From: Cryptosporangium phraense | Lineage (GTDB): Bacteria > Actinomycetota > Actinomycetes > Mycobacteriales > Cryptosporangiaceae | DNA: 64,000 nucleotides | Reading direction: 5' to 3' | NCBI RefSeq assembly: GCF_006912135.1 | Contig: NZ_VIRS01000003.1 | Location: forward strand, 124,001-188,000 | Part shown: in pieces, positions 30,505 through 45,899 of the stretch | How the letters are laid out: the number at the start of each line of letters is the position of its first letter | Numbering within the stretch: the first letter of the stretch is position 1 | Notes under the pieces: generated by a model | Seen by the model: only the letters and a program-made list of their open reading frames with translations | Told to the model about the DNA's origin: nothing | Databases searched by the model: none | Position numbers and translations under genes: made by a program

Positions 30505-31596
30505 CTAGGCTCTCGTGACTTCCAGGGCCAGCTGGTGTTCTTCGCGGACCCGGACGACCAGGACCGGAACGTCGGCGGAGGGCTCGGAGATCGGGCCGTC
30601 GTCGTCCCGGTTGCCGCCGGTGACCGGCTGGATCCCGAGGACGGCCAGCTCGGAACAGACCGCCGCACGGACCTCGGGCTGGTCCCAGCCGATCTCCCCG
30701 GTGAACACCAGCGCGTCCAGGTGCGGCAGCGACGCCGCCATCGCGCCGACGGCCCGCCGCACCGCGTGCGCGTAGGCGTCCAGCGCGGCGGCCGCGGCCG
30801 GGTCGCTCGAGGCCACCAGCTCGCGGGTGTCGCCGGAGATCCCGCCCGACATCCCGAGCAGCCCGGACCTCTTCTGCAGCCCGTCGGCGAGGTCGTCGAC
30901 CGACAGCCGGCCGTCGAGCAGCCAGAGCAGCAAGCCCGGGTCGACCGCGCCGGAGCGGCGCGACATCGGGATCCCGTCCAACGGTGTCATCCCCATCGTC
31001 GTGTCGACGCTCATCCCGCCGGCGACCGCGCAGACCGACGCCCCGCCGCCCAGGTGGGCGATCACCAGGTTCGGCGACGGATTGCCGAGCAGCACCGCGG
31101 CCCGGCGGGACGACCACGCGTACGACAGCCCGTGGAACCCGTAGCGGTGCAGGTTCCAGCGGCCGCGCCATTCCGCGGGCAGCGGCAGCATCGCCGCGGC
31201 CGGCGGGAGCGTGGCGTGGAACGCGGTGTCCGGGCACACGTAGTGCGGGACGTCGGGCAGCGCGGTGCGGGCCGCGGCCAGCAGCGCCAGCGCCGGCGGA
31301 TCGTGCTGCGGCGCCAGGTCGGCGACCTCGTGCAGCGCCGCGACCAGCGCGTCGTCCACGACCGTCGGCACCGCGACGAGCCCGCCGCCGTGCACGAGCC
31401 GGTGCCCCACCGCGTCCGGCGCGGCCGGCAGATCCGCGACGAACGCCCCGAACGCGTCGGCGGCGTCCGGAGAGCCGGGCTCGAGGTCGAGCGTCTCGGC
31501 CGCCAGCTCGGTCATGGCGTCCGGGTCGTCCCCCGGCTCCAGGAGCGCGACCCCGACGCTGTGCGACCCGGCGGTGACCGCCAGAACCCGTGTCAT
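30505..31596 (-). CDS. Divergent acetate kinase-like protein
   Basis: A 363-residue member of the acetate/propionate kinase (ASKHA) family. Recognisable blocks are GHRLVHGG, DTAFHATLP, HRYGFHGLS, RRSGAVDPGLL and FTGEIG. Several otherwise conserved positions differ: the N-terminal NAGSSSLK motif reads TAGSHSVG (Asn to Thr8, Lys to Gly15) and HLGNGAS reads HLGGGAS. Catalysis on acetate is therefore doubtful, and no phosphotransacetylase gene is nearby. It is the last gene of the 13-gene glycan operon, overlapping the preceding stop by 4 bases. A different acid or sugar substrate, or loss of function, are alternatives. Confidence 0.75.
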   Translation of the reverse strand: MTRVLAVTAGSHSVGVALLEPGDDPDAMTELAAETLDLEPGSPDAADAFGAFVADLPAAPDAVGHRLVHGGGLVAVPTVVDDALVAALHEVADLAPQHDPPALALLAAARTALPDVPHYVCPDTAFHATLPPAAAMLPLPAEWRGRWNLHRYGFHGLSYAWSSRRAAVLLGNPSPNLVIAHLGGGASVCAVAGGMSVDTTMGMTPLDGIPMSRRSGAVDPGLLLWLLDGRLSVDDLADGLQKRSGLLGMSGGISGDTRELVASSDPAAAAALDAYAHAVRRAVGAMAASLPHLDALVFTGEIGWDQPEVRAAVCSELAVLGIQPVTGGNRDDDGPISEPSADVPVLVVRVREEHQLALEVTRA

Positions 31597-32510
31597 ACCT
31601 GCGGCAGTACCCCGAGGGCTTCGATCAATCCCCTGGTGAGGCCGTCCGGGCGGCCGGAGCGGTAGGCGGCCGCGCGGTGGTGGGCGGCCGGGGATCGGCA
31701 CCAGTCCCACCACTCCGGCAGCTCGTCGAGCCGGTCGGCGTCCAGGACGGCGGGCCAGTCCAGGGCCCGGGCCTGGGCGGTGACCTTCGCGCCGCCGTCG
31801 ACCGGGTCGACCGCCAGCACCGGGACGCCGGCCTGCAGGCCGAGCACCAGCCCGTGCAGGCGGGTCGTCACCACCACGTCAAGACGGCTGAGCACCGACC
31901 GCAGCTGGCCGGGGGTCGCGAACAGGCGCCAGTCGTGGGCGTCGAGGCGGGTGTCGAGCGGGACCCGGGCCACGTCCAGGCCGTGCAGCCAGCCGGTGAG
32001 GGCCGACGCCACCGAGCCGTGCCGGCGCCGGACGCCGTACTCGTGCTGACCGTCGGTGAGGATCACACCGACCACCGGTACGGCGTCCGGCTCCGGGGCT
32101 GCGAGGGCCAGATCCGGTTGCGGGTCCGATCCGGCGCCGTCGCGGGGCAGGACCACGTCGAAGCCGGTCACCGCCGGGTCGGTCGCGTCGAGCACCGAGA
32201 CGCCGACCGCGATCCTCCGGCAGCGCGTGAACCGGGCGTGCAGGTCGAGCAGCGGGCTCGGGATGCCCGACCCCGGTGCGTTGCTGTGCAGCGGCCCGCA
32301 CGCGAAAACGACCGTGTGGTACTCGTCCGGGTCGGCGTCCTCCAGGTGCAGACCGTCAGCCCGGAACCCCGGCGACCAGGCCACGTCGTACGGGATCCCG
32401 GCCGCGTCCAGCGTCGCGGTGACCGCGTCGCCGGCCAGCACGTCCCCGGCCGTCGCCTCGCCGTGCAGGAAGCTGTACCACCCGGTGACCAGTACCCGGT
32501 CAGCCCACAT
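31593..32510 (-). CDS. Polysaccharide pyruvyl transferase family protein
   Basis: A 305-residue protein of the polysaccharide pyruvyl transferase family, which puts pyruvate ketals on glycan sugars. Visible hallmarks are VFACGPL near residue 68 and the C-terminal SRLDVVVTTRLHGLVLGLQAGVPVLAVD, which ends in the family's RLHG motif. The N-terminal half is poorly conserved. It overlaps the upstream glycosyltransferase by 11 bases and the downstream kinase-like gene by 4. Pyruvylation of the operon's heptose glycan is a reasonable inference. Confidence 0.75.
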   Translation of the reverse strand: MWADRVLVTGWYSFLHGEATAGDVLAGDAVTATLDAAGIPYDVAWSPGFRADGLHLEDADPDEYHTVVFACGPLHSNAPGSGIPSPLLDLHARFTRCRRIAVGVSVLDATDPAVTGFDVVLPRDGAGSDPQPDLALAAPEPDAVPVVGVILTDGQHEYGVRRRHGSVASALTGWLHGLDVARVPLDTRLDAHDWRLFATPGQLRSVLSRLDVVVTTRLHGLVLGLQAGVPVLAVDPVDGGAKVTAQARALDWPAVLDADRLDELPEWWDWCRSPAAHHRAAAYRSGRPDGLTRGLIEALGVLPQV

Positions 32511-33402
32511 AGGACCGCGCTCCGGACTCGCGCTGCGGGGCCTCCAGGGCCCGCAGACCGCGTTCGACCCACGGCGGCGCCGGGCGCCGCTCGCGCAGCA
32601 CCCACGGCAGGCCGGCCGCCGCGTCGGCGAACGCCAGCAGCGAGGTCCGGTCGCGGGGGACGGTCGAGGCCAGGAACGCGCTCCGGCGCACCGCCCGCCC
32701 GAGCGGACGCCGCAGCCAGGTGAACCAGAGCGTGTTCCGGATCCCGTGCCGGCGGCGCAGCGTCGCGTCCCGCGCGGGCGACGGACGGTGGTGCACGGTC
32801 AGCTCGGACGCGTAGACCAGCCACCACCCGGCCGCCACCAGGTCGACGGCCAGCAGCTCCTCCTCGCCCCCGAGCCAGAGCCGGGGCGAGAACCCGCCGG
32901 CGTCCCGGAACGGCTCCAGCCGCATCACGGTGGCCCCGGCCAGGAACGATCCGAGCGCCGGGCCGGGCAGCCACGGCGGCCGCGGCACCGGCGAATCGCG
33001 CAGCTCGGGCACGATCGGGTCCTCGAACACGGCGCCGTCGGCGTGCACCAGGATCCGCGCGGTCACGGCCGCGACCAGCGGATGCGCGTCCAGCAGGTCG
33101 GCCGCCCGAGCCAGCGACGACGGCTCCCACCAGGTGTCGTCGTCGCAGAACGCCAGGTACGGCGTCGCCGCCTCGCGGGCGGCCAGGTTCCGACCCGTCG
33201 CCCCGAGATTCCGCCCGGGCTCGAGCAGCCGCACGTCGGGAAAGGACGACGCGACGGCCGCCGCGGTTCCGTCGGTGGACGCGTTGTCGACCACGATCAC
33301 CGGCGGCCGCTCCGGAAGCGCGGCCAGCCGGTCGAGCGTGTGCAGCAGCTCGTCGCGCCGGTTGTGCGTGATGACGGCGACCGTCACCCGTCCGTCGTTC
33401 AT
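32500..33402 (-). CDS. Family 2 glycosyltransferase
   Basis: A 300-residue GT-A fold transferase. VAVITHNRRDELLHTLDRL opens the nucleotide-sugar domain. VIVVDNASTDGTA is the GT2 signature and FCDDDTWWEPSSLARA holds the DxD metal site. No membrane segments are seen, so it works on the cytoplasmic face. It is closely similar to the next gene upstream (33399-34247), suggesting duplication, and starts 4 bases inside that gene. The donor and acceptor are unknown. Confidence 0.9.
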   Translation of the reverse strand: MNDGRVTVAVITHNRRDELLHTLDRLAALPERPPVIVVDNASTDGTAAAVASSFPDVRLLEPGRNLGATGRNLAAREAATPYLAFCDDDTWWEPSSLARAADLLDAHPLVAAVTARILVHADGAVFEDPIVPELRDSPVPRPPWLPGPALGSFLAGATVMRLEPFRDAGGFSPRLWLGGEEELLAVDLVAAGWWLVYASELTVHHRPSPARDATLRRRHGIRNTLWFTWLRRPLGRAVRRSAFLASTVPRDRTSLLAFADAAAGLPWVLRERRPAPPWVERGLRALEAPQRESGARSYVG

Positions 33403-34247
33403 GAAATCCTTTCGAGGTCCTTCTCGACGCGGCCCGGCAGGCGCCTCCGGTGGCGCATCGCGTCGGGAAACTTGGAGAGCGCGGCGACGAGCGCCCGGCG
33501 GGCGATCGCGTCGTCACGGGCGGAGCGGGCCAGCGCAGCGGTGTCGGCCGCGATCACCGGCCAGGGCCGGCGCAGCCAGGTCGTGAGCAGCGCGTTGCGG
33601 CGCAGCTGGGCGACCCGGCCGGGCCGTCCGCCGTCGGCCGGATGGTGGTGCGCGACCACCTCCGGACAGTAGGCGACGCCCCACCCGGCGGTGGCCAGGT
33701 CGATCGCCAGCAGCGTCTCTTCGGAGCCGAAGTGCAGCACCGGGGAGAACCCGCCGGCCTCCAGGAACGCCGACCGGCGCACGATGCTCGCGCAGGCCAG
33801 GAACCCGAGCACCGACGGCCCGGGGAGGTCGGCGGCGGTGCCGAGCGGGGAGTCCGCCAGCACGGCGTTCAGCGGGTCCTCGGTCTCGTCCGGGCCGACC
33901 AGGGTCCGAGCCGCGACCAGCCCGAGCCGCGGGTGCTCGCGGAGCAGCCGCTCGCCGGTGCGGATCGCCCCCGGGGCCCACCAGGAGTCGTCGTCGCTGA
34001 ACGCCACGAACTCGGTGTCGAGGGCCCGCGCGCCGATCGTCCGGGCGGCCGCGCCGTGGTTGCGCGCCGATCGGATCACCCGCACGTCCGGGTGGCGGGC
34101 CGCGACCGCGTCCGCGGTCCCGTCCCGCGACCCGTTGTCCACGACCACGACCGGTGGCTGCTCCGGCAGCGCGACCAGCTGCTCCAGGGTGGCGAGGGTC
34201 CGCTCCCGCCGGTCGCGGGTGATCATGACGATCCCGGTTCCGGTCAT
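33399..34247 (-). CDS. Family 2 glycosyltransferase (paralogue)
   Basis: A 282-residue GT2 enzyme with VMITRDRRERTLATLEQL, VVVVDNGSRDGTADAV and FSDDDSWWAPGAI (DxD). It shares layout and many residues with its downstream neighbour, including the late FLEAGGFSPVLHFGSEETLLAIDL block, so the two are probably tandem duplicates. ATG 34247 gives the conserved start; an in-frame upstream extension of 46 codons lies within the previous gene and is rejected. It overlaps its neighbours by 4 bases on both sides. Confidence 0.9.
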   Translation of the reverse strand: MTGTGIVMITRDRRERTLATLEQLVALPEQPPVVVVDNGSRDGTADAVAARHPDVRVIRSARNHGAAARTIGARALDTEFVAFSDDDSWWAPGAIRTGERLLREHPRLGLVAARTLVGPDETEDPLNAVLADSPLGTAADLPGPSVLGFLACASIVRRSAFLEAGGFSPVLHFGSEETLLAIDLATAGWGVAYCPEVVAHHHPADGGRPGRVAQLRRNALLTTWLRRPWPVIAADTAALARSARDDAIARRALVAALSKFPDAMRHRRRLPGRVEKDLERIS

Positions 34248-35203
34248 CGGACGGCTCCGGCCAGTACCCCGAGGTTCTCGAGCTCGGTCAGCACGTCCTC
34301 CTTCTGGACGCGGAGCAGCCGCGCGTCGGGGGCGGCTCCGTGGGCGTCGCCGGGACGCAGGTCGGACGGGTCGTCGGGGCGCCACAGGATCCGGTGCCGG
34401 ACGTCGGGCGGAGGACCCCAGAGCGCGGGGGAGACCGGGCCGAACAGCACGACCGAGGGCGTGCCCAGCGCGGTCGCGAGGTGAGCGATCCCGGTGTCCC
34501 CGACGACGACGGCCCGGGCCGCGCCGATCAGCCGGACGAGATCGGAGAACCCCAGGTCACCGGTACCACCCAGGACCGCGTCCGCGGGGAGGCCGGCGTC
34601 GGCCGCGACGGACTCGGCCAGGGCGCGCTCGCCCCGGCCGGCGGTGATCACGACCGGGACGTGCGCCCGCGCGAGCTCGCGGGCCACGGCGGCGAACCGG
34701 TCGGGCGGCCAGCGGCGGGACCCGGCGTCGGCGCCCGGATGGAGCACGACCGGGCCGTTCCCGGCTGGTTCGCCGATCCGCAGGTCGAGCGGGTCGCACT
34801 CGACCCCGTACCACTCCAGCATCCGGCACCAGCGCACGCGCTCGTGCTCGTCCTCGCGCCACATCGGCCCGTCGAACCCGGGCAGCGCCCAGCCCAGCAC
34901 CGCGCCCGGCGAGAGCGCCCGCAGCACCTGCCTGCTCGGCAGCCCGTTGCCGTGCAGATCCACCGCGACGTCCGGCGCCGGCCCGTCCCAGGGCAGCACC
35001 GGCGGCACCGACCGGCCCGGCGCGGTCGTCGGCAGCACCCGGTCGACCGCACCGGAGGCCAGCGCGACCGCCGCGAAGCGGTCCGGCGCGGCCAGCACGA
35101 TCTCGGCGTCGGGCAGCGCTCGGCGCAGGCCCCGCAGGGCCGGCACCGCGGTGAGCAGGTCGCCCAGTCCGAGCGCCCGCAGCACCAGTACCCTGGCCGT
35201 CAT
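34244..35203 (-). CDS. Family 9 glycosyltransferase (heptosyltransferase-like)
   Basis: A 319-residue GT9 (GT-B fold) enzyme, the family of LPS heptosyltransferases that use ADP-heptose. It begins VLVLRALGLGDLLTAVPALRG, the GT9 N-terminal signature. The C-terminal half has VVLHPGADAGSRRWP and VVGDTGIAHLATALGTPSVVLFGP, which bind the nucleotide sugar. With hldE and gmhA directly upstream it is a natural user of the heptose made by this operon. It overlaps both neighbours by 4 bases. Confidence 0.9.
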   Translation of the reverse strand: MTARVLVLRALGLGDLLTAVPALRGLRRALPDAEIVLAAPDRFAAVALASGAVDRVLPTTAPGRSVPPVLPWDGPAPDVAVDLHGNGLPSRQVLRALSPGAVLGWALPGFDGPMWREDEHERVRWCRMLEWYGVECDPLDLRIGEPAGNGPVVLHPGADAGSRRWPPDRFAAVARELARAHVPVVITAGRGERALAESVAADAGLPADAVLGGTGDLGFSDLVRLIGAARAVVVGDTGIAHLATALGTPSVVLFGPVSPALWGPPPDVRHRILWRPDDPSDLRPGDAHGAAPDARLLRVQKEDVLTELENLGVLAGAVR

Positions 35204-36585
35204 CCCCGGGCCCGTTCCAGCAGCCCGGTCGTCGACCGTCCGTCCAGATAGGGCAGCACGACGGCCTCGCCGCCCCAGGACCGCACGGCCGCGGCCTCGG
35301 GCAGCGCGTCCACCGTGTAGTCGCCGCCCTTGACCCAGCGGTCCGGGCGCAGCTCGTTCAGCACCTGCTCGGGGGTGTCCTCGTCGAACACGACGACCGC
35401 GTCGACGGCGGCCAGCCCGGAGAGGACGGCGGCCCGGTCGGCGGCGGTGTTCAGCGGCCGCCCGGCGCCCTTCAGCCGGGTCACCGAGGCGTCCGAGTTG
35501 AGCAGCACGATCAGGCAGTCCCCGGCTCGCCGGGCCGCCTCCAGCAACCCGACGTGCCCCGCGTGCACGAGATCGAAGCACCCCCCGGTAGCCACCACGG
35601 TCCCGCCCTCGGCCCGCACGGCCTCCGCCAGCCCAACGGCCTCCGCCAGCCCGATACCCGCCCCGCCCGCGCCGCCGCGGGCTCCGGCCCCGCTCACGCC
35701 GCCGCGTGCTCCGGCCCCGCCCGCGCCGCTGCGCGGCGCACCGGCGCCCCGGCCGGGCCAGGCGAACGCGCCTCCGGCGTCCACGAAAGCCGTGGCCGAC
35801 GCCACCGCGCGCGCCACCGCCTCCTCGGGCAGCGCCCCGTCGGCGAGCGCGGCCGCCGCGGTAGCGGCGAAACAGTCCCCGGCTCCGCACGGATCACCCG
35901 ACGCCTCGAACGGCGCGGGCACCAGCATCGGCGACGCGGTCCCGCGGCTCAGCATCGCCCCCCGGGCACCCATCGTGATCACCACCGACGAAGCACCCCA
36001 CGATTCGGCCAGCGAAGACGCCGACCGCCCCCCGGCCTCCGAGGCGTTCGGCGTAGCCAGCCGCACCCCCGCCACCGGCGCCGACCCCCGCGGATGCGGA
36101 TCCCACAGCACCCGGGACGCCACCGCGGCCAGCTCCGGACGCACCGCGTCGGCCACACCCCGCCCGTAGTCGGCCACCAGCACCCCGGCCGCCCGCGAGA
36201 GCAGCGCCCCCACTCCGGCGTCCGGATAGGGCAGCGGAACCCCGTCCCCGCGATCCAGCCGCACCACCGGACGCCCACCGGCCAGCACGCGCGTCTTCAC
36301 CGGCACCGTGCCCCGCAGCGGCAGCTCGACCAGCCGCACCCGCCCGGCCAGCAACTCCCGCAGCGCGTCGGCGTCGGGCCCCGACCCGATCGCGGTGACC
36401 AGCACGACCTCGCGATGGGTCCGCTCCGCGGCCAGGCACGCGGCCAGCGCCGCACCGCCCGGCCGGTCCCGCGACCCGGACACGTCGACTACCGGCACCG
36501 GAGCGTCCGGTGCCAGCCGCGTCGCGGTCCCGGTCACGTCCCGGTCGAGCAGCGCGTCGCCGACCACGACCAGCGGAGCGGTCAT
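35200..36585 (-). CDS. hldE: Bifunctional heptose-7-P kinase / heptose-1-P adenylyltransferase
   Basis: A 461-residue HldE (RfaE). The N-terminal PfkB-type kinase (about 1-300) ends with the catalytic CGAGDCFAATAAAAL. The C-terminal nucleotidyltransferase (about 335-461) has GCFDLVHAGHVGLLEAA (HxGH), VKGGDYT and DGRSTTG. It makes heptose 1,7-bisphosphate and later ADP-D,D-heptose. Two oddities: the kinase motif usually read GGAxNxA is GGAALAA, and the domains are joined by a Gly/Ala/Arg linker encoded by 27-base repeats. It lies between gmhA and a GT9, coupled to both by 4-base overlaps. Confidence 0.92.
   Translation of the reverse strand: MTAPLVVVGDALLDRDVTGTATRLAPDAPVPVVDVSGSRDRPGGAALAACLAAERTHREVVLVTAIGSGPDADALRELLAGRVRLVELPLRGTVPVKTRVLAGGRPVVRLDRGDGVPLPYPDAGVGALLSRAAGVLVADYGRGVADAVRPELAAVASRVLWDPHPRGSAPVAGVRLATPNASEAGGRSASSLAESWGASSVVITMGARGAMLSRGTASPMLVPAPFEASGDPCGAGDCFAATAAAALADGALPEEAVARAVASATAFVDAGGAFAWPGRGAGAPRSGAGGAGARGGVSGAGARGGAGGAGIGLAEAVGLAEAVRAEGGTVVATGGCFDLVHAGHVGLLEAARRAGDCLIVLLNSDASVTRLKGAGRPLNTAADRAAVLSGLAAVDAVVVFDEDTPEQVLNELRPDRWVKGGDYTVDALPEAAAVRSWGGEAVVLPYLDGRSTTGLLERARG
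35671..35724 (-). repeat. 27-base repeat encoding the HldE linker
   Basis: Two 27-base units (35671-35697 and 35698-35724) differ at only a few positions and encode AGARGGVSG/AGARGGAGG-type nonapeptides; a partial third follows. They keep the frame and fall exactly between the two enzyme domains, so length changes should be tolerated. Confidence 0.6.
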
Positions 36586-37190
36586 GCCGAGAGCCTGCGG
36601 CCGAGCAGCGCCTCGTCGAACGCCGCACACATCAGATGCAGCGCGACCAGGTGCGCCTCCTGCACGGTCGCGGTCGCGTCGGCGTCGACGCACAGCGCCG
36701 AGTCGGCCGCGGCCGCGAGCGGGTTGGGCTGCGGCCCGGTCATCGCCCACACCGTGATCCCGAGGTCCCTGGCCACCTCGACCGCGCGCAGCAGGTTGCG
36801 GCTGCTGCCCGACGTCGACATCGCGACCAGGACGTCACCGGGCCGGCCGTGCGCGGCGACCTGCCGGGCGAACAGCTCCTCGAACCCGTAGTCGTTGCCG
36901 ATCGCGGTCAGCGTCGACGTCTCCGCGTGCAGCGCGATCGCCGAGTACGCGGGCCGGTCGTCGCGGTAGCGGCCGACCAACTCGGCGGTCAGGTGCTGGG
37001 CCTGCGCGGCGCTGCCGCCGTTGCCGGCCGCGAGCAACCGCGACCCGGACGGCAGCCGGGCCGCGAGCGTCTCGCCCCAGCCCGTCAGCAGCGGGATCTG
37101 GGTCCGGCGCAGCCGGGCCAGCGTCTGCTCCAGCGCGAGACAGTGGTCCGCGGCGGCGCTCGTGCCCACCCGGTCGAGTTGAGAGGTCAT
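36582..37190 (-). CDS. gmhA: Phosphoheptose isomerase GmhA
   Basis: A 202-residue SIS-domain isomerase converting sedoheptulose 7-phosphate to D-glycero-D-manno-heptose 7-phosphate, the first step of heptose synthesis. It has LLAAGNGGSAAQAQHLTAEL (phosphate loop and catalytic Glu), AIGNDYGFEELFARQV and MSTSGSSRNLLRA. The late catalytic His lies in QEAHLVALHLMCAAFD. The length is standard. It overlaps hldE downstream and a GT4 gene upstream by 4 bases each. Confidence 0.93.
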   Translation of the reverse strand: MTSQLDRVGTSAAADHCLALEQTLARLRRTQIPLLTGWGETLAARLPSGSRLLAAGNGGSAAQAQHLTAELVGRYRDDRPAYSAIALHAETSTLTAIGNDYGFEELFARQVAAHGRPGDVLVAMSTSGSSRNLLRAVEVARDLGITVWAMTGPQPNPLAAAADSALCVDADATATVQEAHLVALHLMCAAFDEALLGRRLSA

Positions 37191-38443
37191 CGGGTTGCTC
37201 CTGTGGCGGTGGCGGCCGACCGGCTGCGCCGGACCGCCGAGATGCGACGGGGGACGGGGGGCGCGCACACGCCCCGGTAGGCGGCTTCGGTCGCCGCGGC
37301 GACGCGGTCCCAGCCGTAGTGGGCCTCGGCCCGGCGACGTCCGGCCGCGCCGAACGCGCTCCGGCCGGCCGGGTCGGCCAGCAGCGCGGTCACGGCGCCG
37401 GCCAGCGCGTCCGGGTCGCCCGGCGGCACCAGGCGGCCGGTGCGGCCCTCGGCGACCGTGTCGAGGTGCCCGCCGACGGCGCTGGCCACGACCGGCCGCG
37501 CGCAGGCCATGGCCTCCAGCGGGACGATGCCGAACGGCTCGTAGTGCGGCGGGCAGAGCACCAGGTCGGCGCTGCGGAACAGGGCCGGCATCCGGCTCCG
37601 CTCGACGCCGCCGAGCAGCACGAACCGGTCGGCCAGCCCCAGCGACGCGGCCAGCGCCCGCAGCCGCTGCGCCTCGGGGTCGGCGTCCAGCCGGTCGGCG
37701 GGCGGACCACCGGCCAGCACCAGCTCGGCGTCGGGGATCGACGTCAGCGCGCGCAGGGCGACGTCGGCGCCCTTGCGCCGGACCAGCCGGCCGACCTGCA
37801 GCAGCCGCGGCCGCCCGGACCGCGGCTCGACCGGCCCGGCCGGGGCGAACGCGGTGACGTCCACCCCGCACGGCACGACCTGCAGCCGGCCGGCCGGGAT
37901 CCCGAGCGCGCGCAGCTCGCGCACCTCGTCGGTGCAGGTCGCGATCGTCGTGGCGACGCTGTGCCCGATCGTCGTCTCGTACTCGACCCGGTCGGGCGGG
38001 CTGGTGTCGTCGTCGCCCTGGTGGCGCCGCTTGACGCTGCCCAGCGCGTGGAACGTCTGCACGACCGGCAGCCCGGGGAAGTCCCGCGCCCCGGCCAGCG
38101 CGGCCAGCCCCGACATCCAGAAGTGCGCGTGCACGACGTCCGGCTCGGACGTCCGCCAGAACCGTGCCAGCTCGGCGCCGAACGTCGGCATGTACGGCAG
38201 CAGGTCGTCCTTCGGGATCACCGACGCCGGGCCCGCGGTCACGTGGTGCACGGTGACGCCCGGCGCGAACGGCATCGTCTCGGGCAGCGCCGGGTCGTCC
38301 CGGCGGGTGTGGACGGTCACCTGGTGGCCGCGCTCGGCCAGCGCGACGGCCAGGCTGGCCACGTGGACGTTCTGCCCGCCTGCGTCGACCTCACCGAGGA
38401 CGGCCAGCGGGCTCGCGTGTTCGGAGACCAGGGAGATCCTCAC
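37187..38443 (-). CDS. Family 4 glycosyltransferase
   Basis: A 418-residue GT-B retaining transferase. The N-terminus ISLVSEHASP and GEVDAGGQNVHVASLAVALA match MshA/sucrose-synthase-like GT4 enzymes. The C-terminal half has LLQVGRLVRRKGADVALRAL and the EX7E motif HYEPFGIVPLEAMACARPVV. It is soluble or membrane-associated on the cytoplasmic side. The GTG start overlaps the previous stop by 4 bases. MshA itself (mycothiol synthesis) is less likely given the operon. Confidence 0.9.
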   Translation of the reverse strand: MRISLVSEHASPLAVLGEVDAGGQNVHVASLAVALAERGHQVTVHTRRDDPALPETMPFAPGVTVHHVTAGPASVIPKDDLLPYMPTFGAELARFWRTSEPDVVHAHFWMSGLAALAGARDFPGLPVVQTFHALGSVKRRHQGDDDTSPPDRVEYETTIGHSVATTIATCTDEVRELRALGIPAGRLQVVPCGVDVTAFAPAGPVEPRSGRPRLLQVGRLVRRKGADVALRALTSIPDAELVLAGGPPADRLDADPEAQRLRALAASLGLADRFVLLGGVERSRMPALFRSADLVLCPPHYEPFGIVPLEAMACARPVVASAVGGHLDTVAEGRTGRLVPPGDPDALAGAVTALLADPAGRSAFGAAGRRRAEAHYGWDRVAAATEAAYRGVCAPPVPRRISAVRRSRSAATATGATR

Positions 38444-39387
38444 GCGACCACCTCCTCCAGGAGCACGTCCCAGTCGTCGAGGAATCGTTTGAGTCCGTAC
38501 CGCTCGAGCGCGGCCTGCCGGGCCGCGGTGCCGTGGGCGGCGGCCAGGTCCGGGTCGTCGAGGTAGCGGCGGGCGGCCGCGGCCAGCTCGTCCGGGTCGG
38601 TCGAGATCACCCCGGCGCCGTCCGGAACCGCGCGGTACACCTCGGTCGTGGCCAGCGCGACCACCGGCATCCCCAGGTGCATCGCCTCCAGCAACGACAG
38701 GCCCAGCGACGTCCACCGGATCGGGTGCAGGTAGCAACGGCGGGCCGCCATCGCGTCGTGCAGGTCGGCCTGGGCCAGGTCGAACGTCCGCACGCCGGTC
38801 AGCCGGAGCTGATCGGCGCGCATGCCGAAGACGTCCAGCGGGGCCGCGGCCGACAGCCGCGGCAGCAGGTCGGTCCCGGTCGTCCGGCCCCGCCGGACCG
38901 GGTCGTTGATGACGACCGCGGCCCGTTCGACGGTGCCCGTGTACCGGTGGCCGGGGTCCGGGATCCCGTGCTCGATCACCGCGGTCCGGCTCCCGCCGTT
39001 GTCCCAGAACAACCGGTTGAAGTGCGTCACGTGGACGATCGGCAGGCCGGCGTCCGCCATCGGGTGACGCGTGTCGGGCACCGACCCGGTGCCGGCGCCG
39101 TCGGTGCCCGGGGCGTTGTGCTCCAGGTAGATCGCCGGGAGGTCGCGACCGGTCCACTCGCGGGCCAGCGCGATCTCGTGCGGGCGCTGGACGATCACGA
39201 CGTCGATCTCGGCCTCGCGCAGCTGCTGCGGGGTCAGCTCGACGGCGGTGGCCGGCCAGTCGTACGTGCGCGCACGTCCCAGGCCGTCCGGCCCACGGTC
39301 CGGCGTCATCGGTATCAGGTAGCGGTGCGGGCCGTGGACGAAAGCCGTCGTCCAGGCTCCGTGTACGTGCCAGAGCAGGATGTTCAC
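38440..39387 (-). CDS. Family 4-like glycosyltransferase
   Basis: A 315-residue GT-B type protein. The first domain starts NILLWHVHGAWTTAFVHGPH, with VVIVQRPHEIALA and YLEHNAPG. The second has SLGLSLLEAMHLGMPVVALATTE, a variant of the EX7E region of GT4 enzymes. The C-terminus ends in helices typical of this fold. It starts at a GTG inside the end of the GT9 gene and ends 4 bases inside the next GT4 gene. The sugar specificity is unknown. Confidence 0.85.
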   Translation of the reverse strand: MNILLWHVHGAWTTAFVHGPHRYLIPMTPDRGPDGLGRARTYDWPATAVELTPQQLREAEIDVVIVQRPHEIALAREWTGRDLPAIYLEHNAPGTDGAGTGSVPDTRHPMADAGLPIVHVTHFNRLFWDNGGSRTAVIEHGIPDPGHRYTGTVERAAVVINDPVRRGRTTGTDLLPRLSAAAPLDVFGMRADQLRLTGVRTFDLAQADLHDAMAARRCYLHPIRWTSLGLSLLEAMHLGMPVVALATTEVYRAVPDGAGVISTDPDELAAAARRYLDDPDLAAAHGTAARQAALERYGLKRFLDDWDVLLEEVVA

Positions 39388-40433
39388 GCGGTCACCTCCC
39401 GGGTGTTCTGAGGAGCGGGCCGCTTCTTGACCCGGGGGATGAGTCCGTCGACCGCGGCCAGGACGTCCTCGCCGCGGATCGAGGTGAGGCAGGGATGGCC
39501 GGGGATCGGGCAGGTCCGGGCACGGGTGTCCCGGCAGGCCGCCCGCTGGTCGCCGAGCACCACCGACGGGACGCGGTAGGGCGCCCAGCGCTGGGCCGGG
39601 ACGACCGGCGCGAACAATGAGACGACCGGGGTGCCGACGGCCGCGGCCAGGTGCGCCGGGCCGGTGTTGCCGACGACGACCGCGTCGGCTCCGGCGAGGA
39701 TGCCGGCCAGGCCGTGCAGGTCGGTGCGTCCGCCGAGGTCGAGCGCGCCCGTGCGGTAGGCGACCGACGAGGTCAGCGCGGTCTCGCCGGGCCCGCCGGT
39801 GAGGACGACGCGGTGGCCGGCCTGCAGCAGCGCGGTCGTGATCTCCACCGCGGTCCCGAAGCCGGGCGCCCGGGCCGGAACCGCGGCTCCCGGATGGACG
39901 ACGACGTAAGGCTCGGGGCCGGTCAGGCCGGTGACGTTCGGGGGCGCCGTGATCGCGAGGCGGCCGTCGTCGTTGGACGGGAGCGCGAAGCCGGCCGCGC
40001 GGGCCAGGTCGAGGGCCGCGTCGGCCTCGTGGCGGTCGTCGCCCCGCTGGTGACGCAGGTCGAGCAGCGAGCCCGGGTAGTCGACGCTGTCGGCGCCGAT
40101 CCAGCCGACGCCGGCCAGGCGCAGCAGCAGCGCGGTCGGCAGCGGGCTCTGGTGGAAGCTGGTCAGGATCAGCGCGCGGTCGAGGCGCCGGTCGGCCAGC
40201 GACGCGGTGATCGCGGCGATGTCGTCGGCGCGGACCGGCGGCGGCTCGAGGCCGACCCAGGGCGCGTCCCAGACGATCACGTCGTCGACGCCGGGCAGCA
40301 GGCGGGCCGCGGCCGCTCCCTGCGGGCCGCACAGCAGCGTCACCCAGGCCGAGGACGCGGCCGCGGCCCGGACCGTGGGCCCGGCGAGCAGCACATCACC
40401 GGCGCTGTCGAGCCGGGCGATCAGCGTCCTCAT
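39384..40433 (-). CDS. Family 9 glycosyltransferase (heptosyltransferase-like)
   Basis: A 349-residue second GT9 enzyme. The N-terminus LIARLDSAGDVLLAGPTVRA, then YVVVHPGAAVPAR, VVVGNTGPAHLAAAVGTPVV and SLFAPVVPAQRW are GT9 landmarks. A Cys-containing segment (CRDTRARTCPIPGHPCL) near the C-terminus is shared with many actinobacterial and proteobacterial homologues. It follows gmhB and probably adds a heptose. Four-base overlaps couple it to both neighbours. Confidence 0.9.
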   Translation of the reverse strand: MRTLIARLDSAGDVLLAGPTVRAAAASSAWVTLLCGPQGAAAARLLPGVDDVIVWDAPWVGLEPPPVRADDIAAITASLADRRLDRALILTSFHQSPLPTALLLRLAGVGWIGADSVDYPGSLLDLRHQRGDDRHEADAALDLARAAGFALPSNDDGRLAITAPPNVTGLTGPEPYVVVHPGAAVPARAPGFGTAVEITTALLQAGHRVVLTGGPGETALTSSVAYRTGALDLGGRTDLHGLAGILAGADAVVVGNTGPAHLAAAVGTPVVSLFAPVVPAQRWAPYRVPSVVLGDQRAACRDTRARTCPIPGHPCLTSIRGEDVLAAVDGLIPRVKKRPAPQNTREVTA

Positions 40434-41080
40434 CGGGAGACCTCGCGGGCCAGCGGGAGCGACCGCGGGCCCGGGCGGAGCAGGTGCGAGACGGCGCTGA
40501 ACAGGTCCGGGGCCGTGCCCGGGGCGGCGGCGATCTCCTCGGCCCTGGTCACCGGGGTCGGGACCAGGATGCCGCCGGCTCCCGCGGCGGCCGCGGCGCC
40601 GAGGTCCGCGCCGATGTCGCCGATCACGACCGTGTCGGCCGGATCGACGCCGAGCGCCTCGGTGCCGGCGAGCACCATCCCCGGCTCGGGTTTGCGGCAG
40701 GCGCAGCCCTCGCCCGGGGTGTGCGGGCAGAACGTCCAGACGTCGAGGGGGTCGTCGAGGAGGTGCTGGATGCGGTCGGCGACGGACTCGACCTGGGCCC
40801 GGGTGAGCAGGCCGCGGCCGACGCCCGACTGATTGCTGACGACGCCGACCGCGATGCGGCGGGCCCGCAGGAGCAGCACCGCCTCTTTGGCGCCCGGGCG
40901 GAGCACGACGTTGTCCGGGTCGCCGTTGTAGGGCGGGTCGTCCTCGGTCAGCGTGCCGTCCCGGTCGAACAGCACCGCCCGGGGCAGCCCGGAGCCGCTG
41001 TCCCGGGGTCGGGGTCGCGCCGGGTCCACGTACACCCACGCGTCGGGCGCGAACGCGGAGCGAGCCGGGACGTGCCTCAC
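40430..41080 (-). CDS. gmhB: D,D-heptose 1,7-bisphosphate phosphatase
   Basis: A 216-residue HAD-family phosphatase that removes the 7-phosphate of heptose 1,7-bisphosphate. It has the nucleophile motif VLFDRDGTLTEDDPPYNGDP, then GVVSNQSGVGRG. The zinc-binding cysteine cluster CPHTPGEGCACRKPEPGM is diagnostic of GmhB, and the metal-binding IGDIGADLGAA follows. A 30-residue N-terminal extension precedes the HAD core. The GTG start overlaps the upstream GT2 stop by 4 bases. Confidence 0.92.
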   Translation of the reverse strand: MRHVPARSAFAPDAWVYVDPARPRPRDSGSGLPRAVLFDRDGTLTEDDPPYNGDPDNVVLRPGAKEAVLLLRARRIAVGVVSNQSGVGRGLLTRAQVESVADRIQHLLDDPLDVWTFCPHTPGEGCACRKPEPGMVLAGTEALGVDPADTVVIGDIGADLGAAAAAGAGGILVPTPVTRAEEIAAAPGTAPDLFSAVSHLLRPGPRSLPLAREVSR

Positions 41081-42138
41081 CGCGCCACCGCCGAGTGTGG
41101 AACGTCCGACCGGCTCGGGGCCGCCGAAGTGTCCACGCTTCCGCCGGGAGCGGCGGCGCCCGCAGCGGCCGGGGGCGGCCAGGGCGTCGCTCGGCGGTGG
41201 CGCCACTCGCCGCGGAGCCGGTGGCCGACCGCCGCGAACGGGATCACCGCGCTGGTCGCGAGCATCGTGAGCACCTCGGACCGGCTGCGCGGGCCGGGCG
41301 CGATCCGGGCGGCCGCGAACTCGGCCGTGCCCACCGCCCAGGCGCCCGCTGCGGCCAGCGCCGCCCGCCGCCGGCCGGACACCGCCAGCCCCACCGCCGC
41401 CGCCCCGGCCGCGGCGATCACCGCGTGCCGCGTGATCCGCCCGCGCGGCGCCTCGGCCCGCTCGGCCCAGTCTGCCCCGTGCAACCGTCGCATCAGGACG
41501 TCGTCCGCATTGCCGGCTTGAGCGGAGACCGACACGAGCGGGCCGGCCGTCCGGACCGGATGGACGGTGACCCGCCGTCCCACGGTCAGGCCCCACCCGG
41601 CGTCGGCGACCCGCAGCGCGAGGTCCGCGTCCTCGCGGAACGCGCGGGGGAAGCGCTCGTCGAAGCCGCTGACGGCGGCCAGCGCCGACCGGCGGTAGGC
41701 GATGTCCGCGGTGATCCACCGGGAGGTCTCGAGCCCGGCGGTGTTCCGCTCGAAGTCGGTCGGCCGGCGACCGGCCGGCAGCGGCACCGTGATCCGCCCC
41801 TGCACCGCGGCCGTCGCCGGATCGGCTTCGTCCAGGTCGCGAGCGAGGTCGGCGGCCCAGGTCCGCGACGGCACGACGTCGTCGTCCAGGAACACGACCC
41901 ACGGCGTCGTCGTCGCCCGCCAGCCCGCGTTCCGGGCCGCGGCCGGCCCGTTCCCGCAGCTGTAGACGACCCGGTCGACCCGGTCGAGGCCGACGCCGAG
42001 CGGCCCGCAGTCGGTCAGCGGCCGGTCGTCCACCACGACGACCTCGGCCGGAGCCGGACCGGCGCTCTCGGCGAGAGCCCGCAGACAGTCGGCCAGCGAC
42101 GCACGGCCGACGGTCGGGATCACCACCGAGTAGGTCAT
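41077..42138 (-). CDS. Family 2 glycosyltransferase with C-terminal membrane segments
   Basis: A 353-residue GT2. The catalytic domain (about 1-215) has SVVIPTVGRASLADCLRAL, VVVVDDRPL and VVFLDDDVVPSRTWAADL (DxD), plus FREDADLALRVADAGW. Residues 235-305 contain two or three hydrophobic stretches that probably anchor it in the membrane. The tail is Ala/Pro/Ser-rich. It lies between the carbamoyltransferase and gmhB with 4-base overlaps on each side. Confidence 0.88.
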   Translation of the reverse strand: MTYSVVIPTVGRASLADCLRALAESAGPAPAEVVVVDDRPLTDCGPLGVGLDRVDRVVYSCGNGPAAARNAGWRATTTPWVVFLDDDVVPSRTWAADLARDLDEADPATAAVQGRITVPLPAGRRPTDFERNTAGLETSRWITADIAYRRSALAAVSGFDERFPRAFREDADLALRVADAGWGLTVGRRVTVHPVRTAGPLVSVSAQAGNADDVLMRRLHGADWAERAEAPRGRITRHAVIAAAGAAAVGLAVSGRRRAALAAAGAWAVGTAEFAAARIAPGPRSRSEVLTMLATSAVIPFAAVGHRLRGEWRHRRATPWPPPAAAGAAAPGGSVDTSAAPSRSDVPHSAVAR

Positions 42139-43778
42139 GCGAACATCCGGCCCCGCCGGACCACGAACGGGCCGAGCGCGAGCAGGTCCACCGGGGCCGA
42201 GCCGAAGCACTCCAGCGCGTCCCGGACGTCGTCGACCATCGGGCGACCGGCCGTGTTCAGGCTGGTGTTGACGACGACCGGCAGCCCGGTCCGGCGTTCG
42301 AACCCGCGCAGCATCGCCGCCACCCGGGGTTCGGTCGCCGGGTCCACGGTCTGGATCCGTGCGGTGCCGTCGACGTGCACGACGGCCGGGATGCGGTCCT
42401 TCCACTCCGGCTTGGTGTCGTGGACGAACAGCATGTACGGGCTGGGGAACGGGCCGCCGGTGAAGATGTCGGGGGCCCGGTCGGCCAGCACCATCGGCGC
42501 GACCGGCCGGAACTGCTCCCGGCCCTTGACGTCGTTGAGCCGCTCGAGGTTGCCGGAGTGACCGGGGTGGGCCATCAGCGACCGATGGCCGAGCGCGCGC
42601 GGACCGAACTCGGACCGGCCCTGGAACCACGCGACGACCTGGTTGTCGGCCAGCGCCTCGGCGACCGTCTCGGCCACGTCGTCGGGCCGCTCGTAGGGGA
42701 CGGCGGCGGTCTTCAGCCAGGCCTCGATCTCGGCGTCGGGCCAGCCGCGGCCGAGGTCGGCGCCGGACAGCGGTTCGGGATCGATCCCGTTGAGGGCCGA
42801 CAGGAAGACCGCGGCGCCCAGCGCGGTGCCCGCGTCGCCCGCGGCCGGCTGCACCCAGACCCGGTCGAACGGCCCTTCGCGGACGATCCGGGAGTTCGCG
42901 ACGCAGTTCAGCGCGGTGCCGCCGGCCATCGTGAGCAGCGAGTCGCCGGTCTGGCCGTGCAGCCAGCGGGCCAGGTCGAGCAGGACGTCCTCGAGCACCA
43001 GCTGGGCGGAGGCGGCGATGTCGGCGTGCTCCTGGGTCCAGGCCTCGTTCTCGCCGCGGATCGGGGCGAACTCGGTCCAGTCGATGCCGGTGGCGTGGAA
43101 GCCGCCGTCCTGGGTGGAGTACACCCGCTTGCGTAGTTCGTCGGCCATCCGTGGCGACCCGTAGGAGGCCAGCGCCATCACCTTGAACTCGTCCGACGAG
43201 CGGAGGAAACCGAGGTGGGCGGTGAGGTCCTCGTAGAACAGACCGAGCGAGTGCGGGAGCCGCTGCGAGGCGAGCGTGTGCAGTTCGTTGCCGACCCGGC
43301 GTCCGGCGAGGTGGGACGTCGCCTCGCCGCGGCCGTCGAGCACCAGCACGGAGCCGGTCGCGGAGTCCGGAGCCGCGTACGCGGCCGAGGCGGCGTGGGC
43401 GACGTGGTGGCGGACGAACTTGACCTTGGCCGGGTCGAGGCCGGGCAGGGCCTCGGCCAGGAAGCCCGGAGCTTCTCGGGCGTATCTCTGTCGAAGGTGG
43501 TCCCAGGGGTCGTTCAGTCCGAGGTCCTCGGCCGGCTCCGACAGTGCGGGGTCGTACGAGTACCCCACGTAGTCGATGTCCTGCGGACGGAGGCCGGCCT
43601 GCGCGAGGCACCAGGCGGCCGCTTTCTCGGGCAGCTCCCAGGCCGAGAACGGCAGCGGACGCTTGCCGTGCTTGCGCCGGGAGAATCGCTCTTCTTCAGC
43701 TGCGGCCACGACCTTTCCGTCCACCACGAGGCACGCGGAGGGATCGTGGAACAGCGCGTTGATGCCGAGCACACGCAT
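42135..43778 (-). CDS. NodU/CmcH-type carbamoyltransferase
   Basis: A 547-residue O-carbamoyltransferase that uses carbamoyl phosphate and ATP to carbamoylate a hydroxyl, here probably on a sugar. The N-terminal ASKHA-like domain starts VLGINALFHDPSACLVVDG and has the metal-binding HHVAHAASAAYAAP. The C-terminal YrdC-like domain has WFQGRSEFGPRALGHRSL. It is the first gene of the operon, with GGGAG upstream of ATG 43778. The promoter lies in the 226-base gap to the TetR gene, which also holds a direct repeat. Confidence 0.92.
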   Translation of the reverse strand: MRVLGINALFHDPSACLVVDGKVVAAAEEERFSRRKHGKRPLPFSAWELPEKAAAWCLAQAGLRPQDIDYVGYSYDPALSEPAEDLGLNDPWDHLRQRYAREAPGFLAEALPGLDPAKVKFVRHHVAHAASAAYAAPDSATGSVLVLDGRGEATSHLAGRRVGNELHTLASQRLPHSLGLFYEDLTAHLGFLRSSDEFKVMALASYGSPRMADELRKRVYSTQDGGFHATGIDWTEFAPIRGENEAWTQEHADIAASAQLVLEDVLLDLARWLHGQTGDSLLTMAGGTALNCVANSRIVREGPFDRVWVQPAAGDAGTALGAAVFLSALNGIDPEPLSGADLGRGWPDAEIEAWLKTAAVPYERPDDVAETVAEALADNQVVAWFQGRSEFGPRALGHRSLMAHPGHSGNLERLNDVKGREQFRPVAPMVLADRAPDIFTGGPFPSPYMLFVHDTKPEWKDRIPAVVHVDGTARIQTVDPATEPRVAAMLRGFERRTGLPVVVNTSLNTAGRPMVDDVRDALECFGSAPVDLLALGPFVVRRGRMFA

Positions 43779-43935
43779 CGGCGGCTCCCTTCCAGCGGCA
43801 GCGTTCGGTAGTCGCGGGGGAGTCGTTTGCCGGCCGGAACGGCTCACTCGAGAGCCCGGCGGCCCCATCCGCACCGAGGCAGATACCCCTGGTGCGAGCG
43901 TTAAACGTCGGGTGCAGCAATTGAACTGTCAGGCC

Positions 43936-43970
43936 TGCGGATGCACTTACCTGCGTGCGGATGCTCTTAC
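43936..43970. repeat. Direct repeat upstream of the glycan operon
   Basis: TGCGGATGCnCTTAC occurs at 43936-43950 and 43956-43970, a 20-base period with one mismatch. It lies about 160-190 bases upstream of the carbamoyltransferase start codon, a distance suiting an activator site for the 13-gene operon. No binding protein is known. Confidence 0.5.
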
Positions 43971-44004
43971 TACCAGTGAGCGCGCGACGGCCCCGGTAGG
44001 CCCG

Positions 44005-44595
44005 TTAGGGGCCGAGGGACTTCAGGTAGGACTCGACGACCGTGGGCATGTCGACGGCGGCCGGGTCGAGTAGCCACTGGATCTGCAAACCGTCCATCAG
44101 CGCGATCAGCGCGGTAGCGATCACCGCCGGATCGAGGGCCGGATCGACGTCCCCGGCCCGCTGCCCCTCGGCCACCGCCACCCCCAGATACCGACGAAGC
44201 GCCCGGTACCGCTCCACGAACGACGTGTGCGCAGGATGACCCTCCGCCACCGCCTCGCCCGACAGCGTCACGTACAGCTGAACGAGCCCCGGCACCGTCG
44301 TGTTGTGGCGGACCTGCTCGGCCAGGCCGGCCAGCGCGTCCCGGCCCGACGGCGTCGACTCCGCAAAACGCCTGGCCTGGTCCGACGCGTCACGGAGCGC
44401 GATCACCTCGGCCAGTAGGTGCTCTTTGGACGAAAAGTGGTGCAGCAGCCCGGCCTGGCTCAGCCCGACCCGGTCGGCGATCTCCTTCAGCGAGCCGCCG
44501 CGGTAGCCGGACTCGGCGAACACGGCCATCGCTTCGTGCAGGATCTCCGCACGCTTGGCCCGCCCCTTGGTATAGCTGCCGCGTGGCTTTGTCAC
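44005..44595 (-). CDS. TetR family transcriptional regulator
   Basis: A 196-residue TetR repressor. The DNA-binding domain (about 10-60) has AVFAESGYRGGSLKEIADRVGLSQAGLLHHFSSKEHLL. The remainder is the ligand-binding helical domain with a BetI-like C-terminal pattern. I start at GTG 44595, which has AGGG upstream; GTG 44604 is possible. It is divergent from an MFS transporter and GH3 glucosidase, with a near-perfect palindrome between (44613-44638). It therefore probably represses uptake and hydrolysis of a glucoside or similar ligand. Confidence 0.9.
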   Translation of the reverse strand: MTKPRGSYTKGRAKRAEILHEAMAVFAESGYRGGSLKEIADRVGLSQAGLLHHFSSKEHLLAEVIALRDASDQARRFAESTPSGRDALAGLAEQVRHNTTVPGLVQLYVTLSGEAVAEGHPAHTSFVERYRALRRYLGVAVAEGQRAGDVDPALDPAVIATALIALMDGLQIQWLLDPAAVDMPTVVESYLKSLGP

Positions 44596-44672: not shown

Positions 44673-45899
44673 ATGACCCAGGCCGTCGAGCGCAGGACCC
44701 CGCTGGGCGTGTTCGTCGCGACGATGCCGCTCGCCGGGTTCGGGCTCTACGTGGCGCTGCTGACGCCGGTCGTGGTGACGCTCGCGCTGAAGGTCGAGGC
44801 GGTGGCGCCCGGCAGCAAAGAGCGCGATCTCGGCCTGGTGCTCGGCGTCGGGGCGTTGCTGGCGATGATCAGCAACCCGATCGCGGGCCGGCTCTCCGAT
44901 CGCACCGCCTCCCGCTTCGGCATGCGCCGCCCGTGGCTGATCGGCGGCACGCTCCTCGGTACGGCCGGTCTGGTGCTCGTCGCCACCGCGGAAGACGTCC
45001 CGCTCATCGGCGTCGGCTGGTGCATCACGCAGGTGTCGTACAACGGCGCGCTCGCCGCGCTGACCGCGACGCTGCCGGACCAGGTGCCGGACGCGCGCCG
45101 GGGCGCGGTCAGCGGCCTGGCCGGGATCGCCCTGCAGGTGGCGATCGTGGCCGGCGCGGTGACCGCGGCGGTCTTCTCCGGTGACCTGGCCCGGTTCCTG
45201 GTGCCGGCGGCCATCGCGCTGGTTTTGATCGGGGTCTTCGCCGCGGTGCTGCGCGACCGCGTGCTGGCGACCCGCCCGGCCACGGCCCTCGGATTACGGC
45301 AGCTGCTCGGCACGTTCGTGTTCGACCCGCGCCGCCACCCCGACTTCGCCTGGACCTGGCTGACCCGGTTCGCGTTCATGTTCGCGACCGCCACCGGCGT
45401 CACCTACCTGCCGTACTTCCTCACCGACGAGATCGGCATCCCGAAGGACGACGTCCCCGGCAAGGTCGCGCTCGCCACCGTCGTCCTGACGATCCTGACG
45501 GTCGTGACCAGCGTCGTCGGGGGCCTGCTCTCCGACCGGATCGGACGGCGGAAGCCGTTCGTGATGGTCGCCGCCGTCGTCGCGATGGCCGGTCTGCTCG
45601 TGGTGGCCTTCGCCGGGACGTTCTCGCAGGTCGTCGTCGGGTTCGTGATCTTCGGCATCGGCACCGGGTGCTTCTACGCGGTCGACCTGGCGCTGGTCAC
45701 GCAGGTGCTGCCGAGCACGGACGACACCGGCAAGGACCTCGGCATCATCAACATCGCCAACGCGCTTCCCCAGTCCCTGGCCCCGGCGATCGCGCCGGTG
45801 TTCCTGGCGATCGGCGGTTACCCGCTGCTGTTCGCCGCCGGAGCCGTCGTCGGAATCGTCGGCGCGCTGCTCGTGACGAGAGTTCGGAGTGTGGCATGA
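44673..45899 (+). CDS. MFS transporter
   Basis: A 408-residue major facilitator protein with about twelve hydrophobic segments. Between segments 2 and 3 is the MFS motif GRLSDRTASRFGMRRPW, repeated in the second half as GGLLSDRIGRRKPF. Such carriers of the sugar-cation-symporter-like type import glycosides. It overlaps the beta-glucosidase gene by 4 bases (ATGA), so import and hydrolysis of a glucoside are likely linked. A TTA codon is at position 208. The substrate is not deducible. Confidence 0.9.
   Translation: MTQAVERRTPLGVFVATMPLAGFGLYVALLTPVVVTLALKVEAVAPGSKERDLGLVLGVGALLAMISNPIAGRLSDRTASRFGMRRPWLIGGTLLGTAGLVLVATAEDVPLIGVGWCITQVSYNGALAALTATLPDQVPDARRGAVSGLAGIALQVAIVAGAVTAAVFSGDLARFLVPAAIALVLIGVFAAVLRDRVLATRPATALGLRQLLGTFVFDPRRHPDFAWTWLTRFAFMFATATGVTYLPYFLTDEIGIPKDDVPGKVALATVVLTILTVVTSVVGGLLSDRIGRRKPFVMVAAVVAMAGLLVVAFAGTFSQVVVGFVIFGIGTGCFYAVDLALVTQVLPSTDDTGKDLGIINIANALPQSLAPAIAPVFLAIGGYPLLFAAGAVVGIVGALLVTRVRSVA

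Follow-up and report, generated by a model that had tools for sequence, protein, structure and literature searches.

A run of 13 genes in a stretch of 64,000 nucleotides from Cryptosporangium phraense (contig NZ_VIRS01000003.1, positions 124,001 to 188,000; hereafter the window) resembles the cwg ("cell wall glycan") operon, which, according to the portions of the literature available to us, was described in Streptomyces in 2002. In S. coelicolor this operon spans cwgA-L (SCO6179-6190) next to SCO6178, a putative deacetylase, and its transcription responds to vancomycin and is under sigma-E control (PMC6767563). The labels printed for its genes include dehydratase for SCO6182, phosphoheptose isomerase for SCO6186 and bifunctional synthase/transferase for SCO6187 (PMC5839063), and putative heptosyl transferase for SCO6183/cwgE (PMC5882110). 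The available portions of these three papers present the product as a cell wall glycan by prediction only, and those of two further papers treat cwg only as a cell wall glycan operon (PMC13011467, PMC3902916). Similarly, what was available of the literature on heptose or heptosyltransferases in Streptomyces or Actinobacteria held no report on the chemistry of the cwg product.

An initial annotation, made from the letters of the window alone, had described these genes as an ADP-heptose glycoconjugate pathway and as the best candidate for an undescribed system. The latter claim was not borne out, as the first 11 genes have the order of cwgB-cwgL, known since 2002, and the operon is a variant of a known, chemically unsolved cwg-type operon that is well conserved and apparently mobile between families. 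On balance we favor the reading that it is a cwgB-cwgL-type glycan operon of Streptomycetaceae-like origin, whose product would be a D,D-heptose oligosaccharide that is carbamoylated and exported into the envelope.

Extent of the operon and collinearity with cwg

The codon-usage script with which genes were called, which may misplace starts or miss genes, found an uninterrupted series of 13 genes on the minus strand, running from 43778 to 30505, and the frames are open with a strong coding signal in all 13. Eleven of the 12 junctions overlap by 4 bp and the remaining one by 11 bp; the 4-bp overlaps are what would be expected of a single translationally coupled operon rather than of chance neighbors. 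Based on family scans, the gene order is carbamoyltransferase, family 2 glycosyltransferase (GT2), GmhB, GT9, short GT4, GT4, GmhA and HldE, followed by GT9, GT2, GT2, a pyruvyltransferase-like gene and acetate kinase. GmhA, GmhB, HldE, the two GT9 enzymes, the carbamoyltransferase, a GT2 and the two GT4 enzymes therefore do share one minus-strand run, as the initial annotation had proposed. The genes it placed between 34244 and 43778 are real, but the run extends some 3.7 kb further, with the acetate kinase gene at 30505 ending the operon, and two of the three GT2 genes fall outside that interval.

Genes 1-11 are collinear with cwgB-cwgL, in the same order and on one strand, as determined by comparison with the S. 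coeruleorubidus locus L074 and with the printed labels of SCO6180-6188, which fit the window genes position by position. In L074 the layout is precisely that of the 12 cwg genes, and a polysaccharide deacetylase gene lies divergently at its head. For a broader comparison we used the loci of the best 80 HldE relatives in named genomes, all from Streptomyces or near relatives (best-segment identity of 54-63%; by title 75 Streptomyces, one Wenjunlia, two Kitasatospora, one Actinacidiphila and "Actinobacteria bacterium OV450"). These are the best 80 of at least 418 confirmed loci, so shares among them are not representative of all Streptomyces, and many of them end at contig ends. The eight-gene order from the carbamoyltransferase (CarbT) to HldE is unbroken, as in the window, in 48 of the 80, and an NAD-dependent nucleotide-sugar gene (cwgA) lies directly upstream of CarbT on the same strand in 63 of the 66 loci that have CarbT in view.

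Assignment of the operon genes

All 13 genes described here are on the minus strand. CarbT (42135..43778; cwgB position) matches PF02543 and PF16861 and is assigned as a NodU/TobZ-type O-carbamoyltransferase, with GdmN, novobiocin carbamoyltransferase and TobZ as its relatives in the PDB. A second carbamoyltransferase, 36-39% identical to CarbT, is encoded beside an NAD-dependent sugar epimerase-like gene on contig C22 of the same genome (L141:5331-8961). Two heptosyltransferase-like proteins, GT9a (39384..40433; cwgE position) and GT9b (34244..35203; cwgJ position), match PF01075 with 67.7 and 70.7 bits, respectively (cut-off 22), and were the only proteins found in a genome-wide search with that family. 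The PDB relatives of GT9b are WaaF and WaaC type enzymes.

The GmhA-like sedoheptulose 7-phosphate isomerase (36582..37190; cwgH position; SIS_2) scored 169.3 bits against TIGR00441, under its cut-off of 209.45, and its PDB relatives are phosphoheptose isomerases. The GmhB-like heptose bisphosphate phosphatase (40430..41080; cwgD position; HAD-IIIA) also scored under the cut-offs of the GmhB models, with 115.6 and 70.7 bits (cut-off 178 for the former), and has 4pnh, a heptose 1,7-bisphosphate phosphatase, as its top PDB match. The HldE-like protein (35200..36585; cwgI position), a putative heptose 7-phosphate kinase / heptose 1-phosphate nucleotidyltransferase, has a nucleotidyltransferase domain above the TIGR02199 cut-off (186.7 versus 181.5 bits) and a kinase domain under that of TIGR02198 (104.5 versus 345 bits). 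One of its halves has a heptose 7-phosphate kinase as its PDB match, the other a chain with the title putative cytidylyltransferase. A low-complexity linker rich in Ala and Gly connects the two domains in the window copy.

The other glycosyltransferases are GT2a (41077..42138; cwgC position), GT2b (33399..34247; cwgK position) and GT2c (32500..33402; cwgL position), which match PF00535 with 53.5, 70.4 and 73.1 bits, respectively, together with the short GT4-like GT4s (38440..39387; cwgF position; PF13692, 44.2 bits, cut-off 27) and GT4 (37187..38443; cwgG position; PF00534, 135.4 bits). GT4s could be aligned in a 17-row alignment; its predicted structure was poor (mean predicted local distance difference test score, pLDDT, of 59.0) and was set aside. 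The first PDB match of GT4 is 6kih (Tll1590, which we take to be a sucrose-phosphate synthase; 235.9 bits), with 3c4q next.

The initial annotation had counted a pyruvyltransferase in the operon, and the run does contain a polysaccharide pyruvyltransferase-like protein, PyrT, but its gene (31593..32510) lies beyond the limits that had been set, and the match to PF04230 is weak (38.5 bits, cut-off 25.3) and aligns residues 176-235 only. The predicted structure of PyrT (pLDDT 89.0) is GT-B-like and matched many GT-B enzymes; in Foldseek searches Pvg1p ranked 21, below many GT-B glycosyltransferases, and was not among the 50 rows of a second search. No PDB sequence match was found for PyrT at E 0.1. 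Homologs of PyrT occur in 21 of the 80 named loci and AckA in none. The genome has a single acetate kinase match, AckA (30505..31596; PF00871, 273 bits), which is the final gene here and also in two congeners (L122 and L123). The role of AckA in the pathway is doubtful. The usual partner of acetate kinase is phosphoketolase, the gene for which is on another contig of this genome. Acetate kinases typically have NAGSSS at the N-terminus; that of AckA reads TAGSHSVG, and its Pfam match begins at residue 61.

Heptose activation and the nucleotide

The statement of the initial annotation that no HldD epimerase is present held for the operon and for the genome, in which no protein scored above the TIGR02197 cut-off (13 loose matches, the best with 108.1 versus 274.6 bits). 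In consequence, a nucleoside diphosphate (NDP)-D,D-heptose is the expected donor. We examined HldE in 99 sequences, comprising the window copy, those of the 80 named loci and those of 18 relatives, and found the GAGD motif in all 99 and HxGH in 98.

The identity of the nucleotide is less certain. The motif (F/L)XXGRSTT has been reported, in the portion of the source available, to mark heptose nucleotidyltransferases able to accept CTP and UTP as well (STTR5). The C-terminal motif of the window HldE is YLDGRSTT, in which the arginine is present and the first residue is Y rather than F or L. At the arginine position the 99 sequences have R in 69, H in eight, L in two and Y in one; the remaining 19, some of which are fragments, have no STT motif in their last 60 residues. 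Because the window HldE has the motif arginine, ADP is not certain as the nucleotide, and the enzyme may, judging from this motif, use nucleotides beyond ADP, giving CDP- or UDP-heptose. Thus, of the ADP-heptose pathway originally proposed, the NDP-heptose route with GT9 enzymes and a carbamoyltransferase stands, but the specificity for ADP is uncertain. A single-domain protein of 165 residues encoded on contig C22 of the same genome (L152:9019-9516) is related to the HldE nucleotidyltransferase, with about 40% identity; it has GRSTS at its end and may use a different sugar phosphate.

cwgA and the region upstream of CarbT

In family searches cwgA matched UDP-glucuronate decarboxylase (UDP-xylose synthase) with 288 bits and the next family with 127 bits, and hence it probably supplies UDP-xylose rather than acting as a heptose epimerase. 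We considered cwgA as the missing epimerase and rejected it, as its TIGR02197 score is 67.9 bits. Two cwgA homologs (58 and 57% identity) are encoded elsewhere in the window's genome, on contigs C26 and C39. The one on C39 fits UDP-glucuronate decarboxylase, and a member of the UDP-glucose/GDP-mannose dehydrogenase cluster is encoded about 3 kb away from it. A protein of that cluster adjoins the operon in all five family f2 loci of the window's order (L127-L131), which fits a role for cwgA in UDP-xylose supply. The cwgA of L132-L134, which are from the same class as the window and another order, shares 84-89% identity with its S. coeruleorubidus counterpart.

Upstream of CarbT in the window is a TetR-family gene (44005..44595, minus strand; PF00440), a possible local regulator, which is found at the same place in L122 (72% identity) and L123 (70%). 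The gap between TetR and CarbT (43779-44004) has short blocks, CCTGACAGTT and CGACGTTTA, common to both congeners, which are a possible promoter or TetR operator. A sigma-E regular expression matched only two of 63 loci, with loci related to the true cwg operon among those it failed to match, and the published cwgA promoter was aligned instead, with 200 shuffles that preserve single-base content only. The alignment, at the corresponding site, scored above all shuffles in L072, L074 and L134 and narrowly above them in L073, tied with the best shuffle in L068, and was not above them in L132, L003, L075, L122, L123 or the window.

Distribution and origin

Maximum-likelihood trees (39 rows per gene, with 23 loci picked from the 80 plus relatives, and midpoint roots) placed the window and its two congeners inside Streptomycetaceae clades, with support of 100/99 for CarbT and 100/96 for GT9a, whereas G399, from the window's own family, grouped elsewhere in both. 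Horizontal transfer is the simplest reading of these positions, and it is likely, as far as the trees can tell, that the window's genus acquired the operon from a lineage resembling Streptomycetaceae. The block from TetR to AckA is kept in both congeners; the operon is absent from one of the four genomes of the genus that were examined (G397). More broadly, of 394 genomes sampled from the class, 80 encode CarbT homologs (E <= 1e-140); GT4s homologs (E <= 1e-60) were found in 162 of 298 genomes in the order, and in a phylum-wide sample of 396 genomes the nucleotidyltransferase family exceeded its cut-off in 47.

Proposed product and alternatives

The most likely product is a carbamoylated, perhaps pyruvylated, D,D-heptose envelope oligosaccharide. 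Heptose activation, heptosyl transfer, further glycosyl transfer and O-carbamoylation are supported as predicted activities of the encoded enzymes, while we infer the order of substrates, the linkages, the acceptor, cytoplasmic assembly, export and envelope location. We propose that heptose would be used in its D,D form, there being no HldD, and transferred by the two GT9 enzymes; that the GT4 and GT2 enzymes would elongate the oligosaccharide within the cytoplasm, with UDP-sugar enzymes encoded at other loci perhaps providing xylose or glucuronate; and that CarbT would add an O-carbamoyl group and PyrT perhaps a pyruvate ketal. The product would then be exported, probably on a lipid carrier via an unlinked flippase, and join the cell envelope. 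The initial annotation was correct that the operon has no flippase or initiating enzyme, but the genome encodes two PF01943 and four PF02397 proteins above cut-off elsewhere, and one of each might serve in export and priming, respectively. An envelope role is favored by the sigma-E and vancomycin response of the S. coelicolor operon. Carbamoylated heptose occurs in the Pseudomonas lipopolysaccharide (LPS) core, where, in the available portion of the source, the transfer is assigned to WapO (PMC8005017), and this precedent makes carbamoylation of heptose a sound guess here.

Several observations weigh against this proposal. No Pfam family of a flippase, ABC exporter or initiating transferase was found among the 20 called genes between 26423 and 49264, and a crude hydropathy scan revealed no clear integral membrane enzyme in the operon (GT2a, GT9a, GT4s and GT9b each have a single segment just above the threshold). 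GmhA, GmhB and the HldE kinase all match their proper families at scores under the curated cut-offs, and both congeners have H instead of R in the HldE motif. The window has no cwgA or diverging deacetylase gene, with TetR standing upstream of CarbT instead, and nothing in the 322 bp upstream of CarbT matches the cwgA sigma-E promoter (score of 13 against a maximum of 21 in the shuffles). Moreover, the S. coelicolor operon was compared through Streptomyces loci of the same layout and printed labels, not through its own DNA. PyrT is weakly assigned, and pyruvylation is the weakest of the assignments. Lastly, GT4 is nearest to Tll1590 and MshA-type enzymes, which act on small soluble acceptors, so a soluble acceptor is possible for GT4 as well.

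An operon without a lipid-carrier enzyme or flippase might instead make a small soluble or secreted heptose metabolite, in the manner of the Streptomyces antibiotic septacidin, which uses ADP-heptose according to the available portion of the source. GdmN and TobZ, carbamoyltransferases of the CarbT family, decorate antibiotics, and a major facilitator superfamily (MFS) transporter, cluster c11, is encoded near the operon in 49 of the 80 named loci. That transporter has no counterpart in the window, however, and the 20 genes scanned include none for a polyketide, peptide or nucleoside. The frequencies of CarbT and GT4s homologs in the class and order suggest a broad role, and the control of the S. 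coelicolor operon by sigma-E and vancomycin, as published, also argues against a metabolite, which we consider unlikely.

The glycan might also be built from a modified donor if cwgA and an extra short-chain dehydrogenase/reductase (SDR) act on NDP-heptose in relatives of the window operon, giving a deoxy, epimerized or oxidized heptose. One such SDR, k8 (reference copy L128:9873-10571; at least 56% identity in 10 other genomes), follows HldE in 11 of the 12 cwg-type loci examined outside the Streptomycetaceae (L124, L126-L131, L136-L138 and L140; L125 and L135, the greater part of which is not cwg-type, are not counted in the 12), and a related SDR, c13, is present in 16 of the 80 named loci. 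No ortholog of k8 was found in the window, to which the search with k8 was confined; the SDR at 6235-7020 was considered and rejected at 26% identity, the best value obtained. Together with the fit of cwgA to UDP-glucuronate decarboxylase rather than to TIGR02197, this makes a modified donor quite improbable. Decay of a non-functional acquisition, with AckA a chance neighbor, would account for the missing cwgA, the absence of the operon from one of the four genus genomes and the differing HldE motifs of the congeners. We regard it as very improbable, given the 13 open frames with a strong coding signal, the gene order and 3' AckA kept in two congeners, and the GAGD and HxGH catalytic motifs kept in HldE.

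Neighboring genes

Beyond TetR and divergent from it are genes for an MFS sugar-transporter-like protein and a glycoside hydrolase family 3 (GH3) glycosidase (44673-48289, plus strand), which together resemble a module for catabolism; in L140, too, the cwg-type operon has a GH3 gene at its border. The c11 MFS gene of the named loci is mostly convergent, just past the end of the operon; the window MFS (44673-45899) was considered as its equivalent and rejected, having no significant match to it.

Comparison with known systems

The cwg label, when combined with the set of NDP-heptose and carbamoyltransferase genes, leads to a testable chemical prediction, namely that actinomycete envelopes contain heptose and O-carbamate. 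According to the available portion of the source, NDP-heptoses act as agonists on ALPK1, a sensor of innate immunity, which gives wider interest to the question of which Gram-positive bacteria make them, and why. More tentatively, cwg-type operons might encode widespread Gram-positive envelope glycans based on carbamoylated D,D-heptose, built without HldD and with CDP- or UDP-heptose as a possible donor. Such glycans would be the actinobacterial equivalent of the carbamoylated heptose core found in LPS, handed on between actinomycete families and tuned locally by UDP-xylose supply and pyruvylation; we hold this to be possible rather than probable.

Septacidin biosynthesis in Streptomyces is likewise an actinomycete pathway, one that uses ADP-heptose and, in the portion of the source available, has an antibiotic as its product. 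The Gram-negative LPS inner core pathway (GmhA, HldE, GmhB, HldD and WaaC/WaaF) has the heptose activation steps that are predicted for the window, and GT9 enzymes as well, whereas the window's genome has no HldD above cut-off and its host lineage is Gram-positive. In Pseudomonas LPS the carbamoyltransferase WapO is assigned to heptose, as we propose by analogy for CarbT. Compared with the S. coelicolor cwg operon, with which it has the 11-gene order from cwgB to cwgL in common, the window lacks the cwgA head gene, the diverging deacetylase and a sigma-E promoter match, and has PyrT and AckA as extra terminal genes, with TetR lying upstream. Nearest to the window in the trees is a second Streptomycetaceae clade of cwg-type loci (for example L075, Actinacidiphila oryziradicis, and L034, Wenjunlia), which, unlike the window, keeps cwgA directly upstream of CarbT, and of which L075 has the order from CarbT through PyrT in common with the window.

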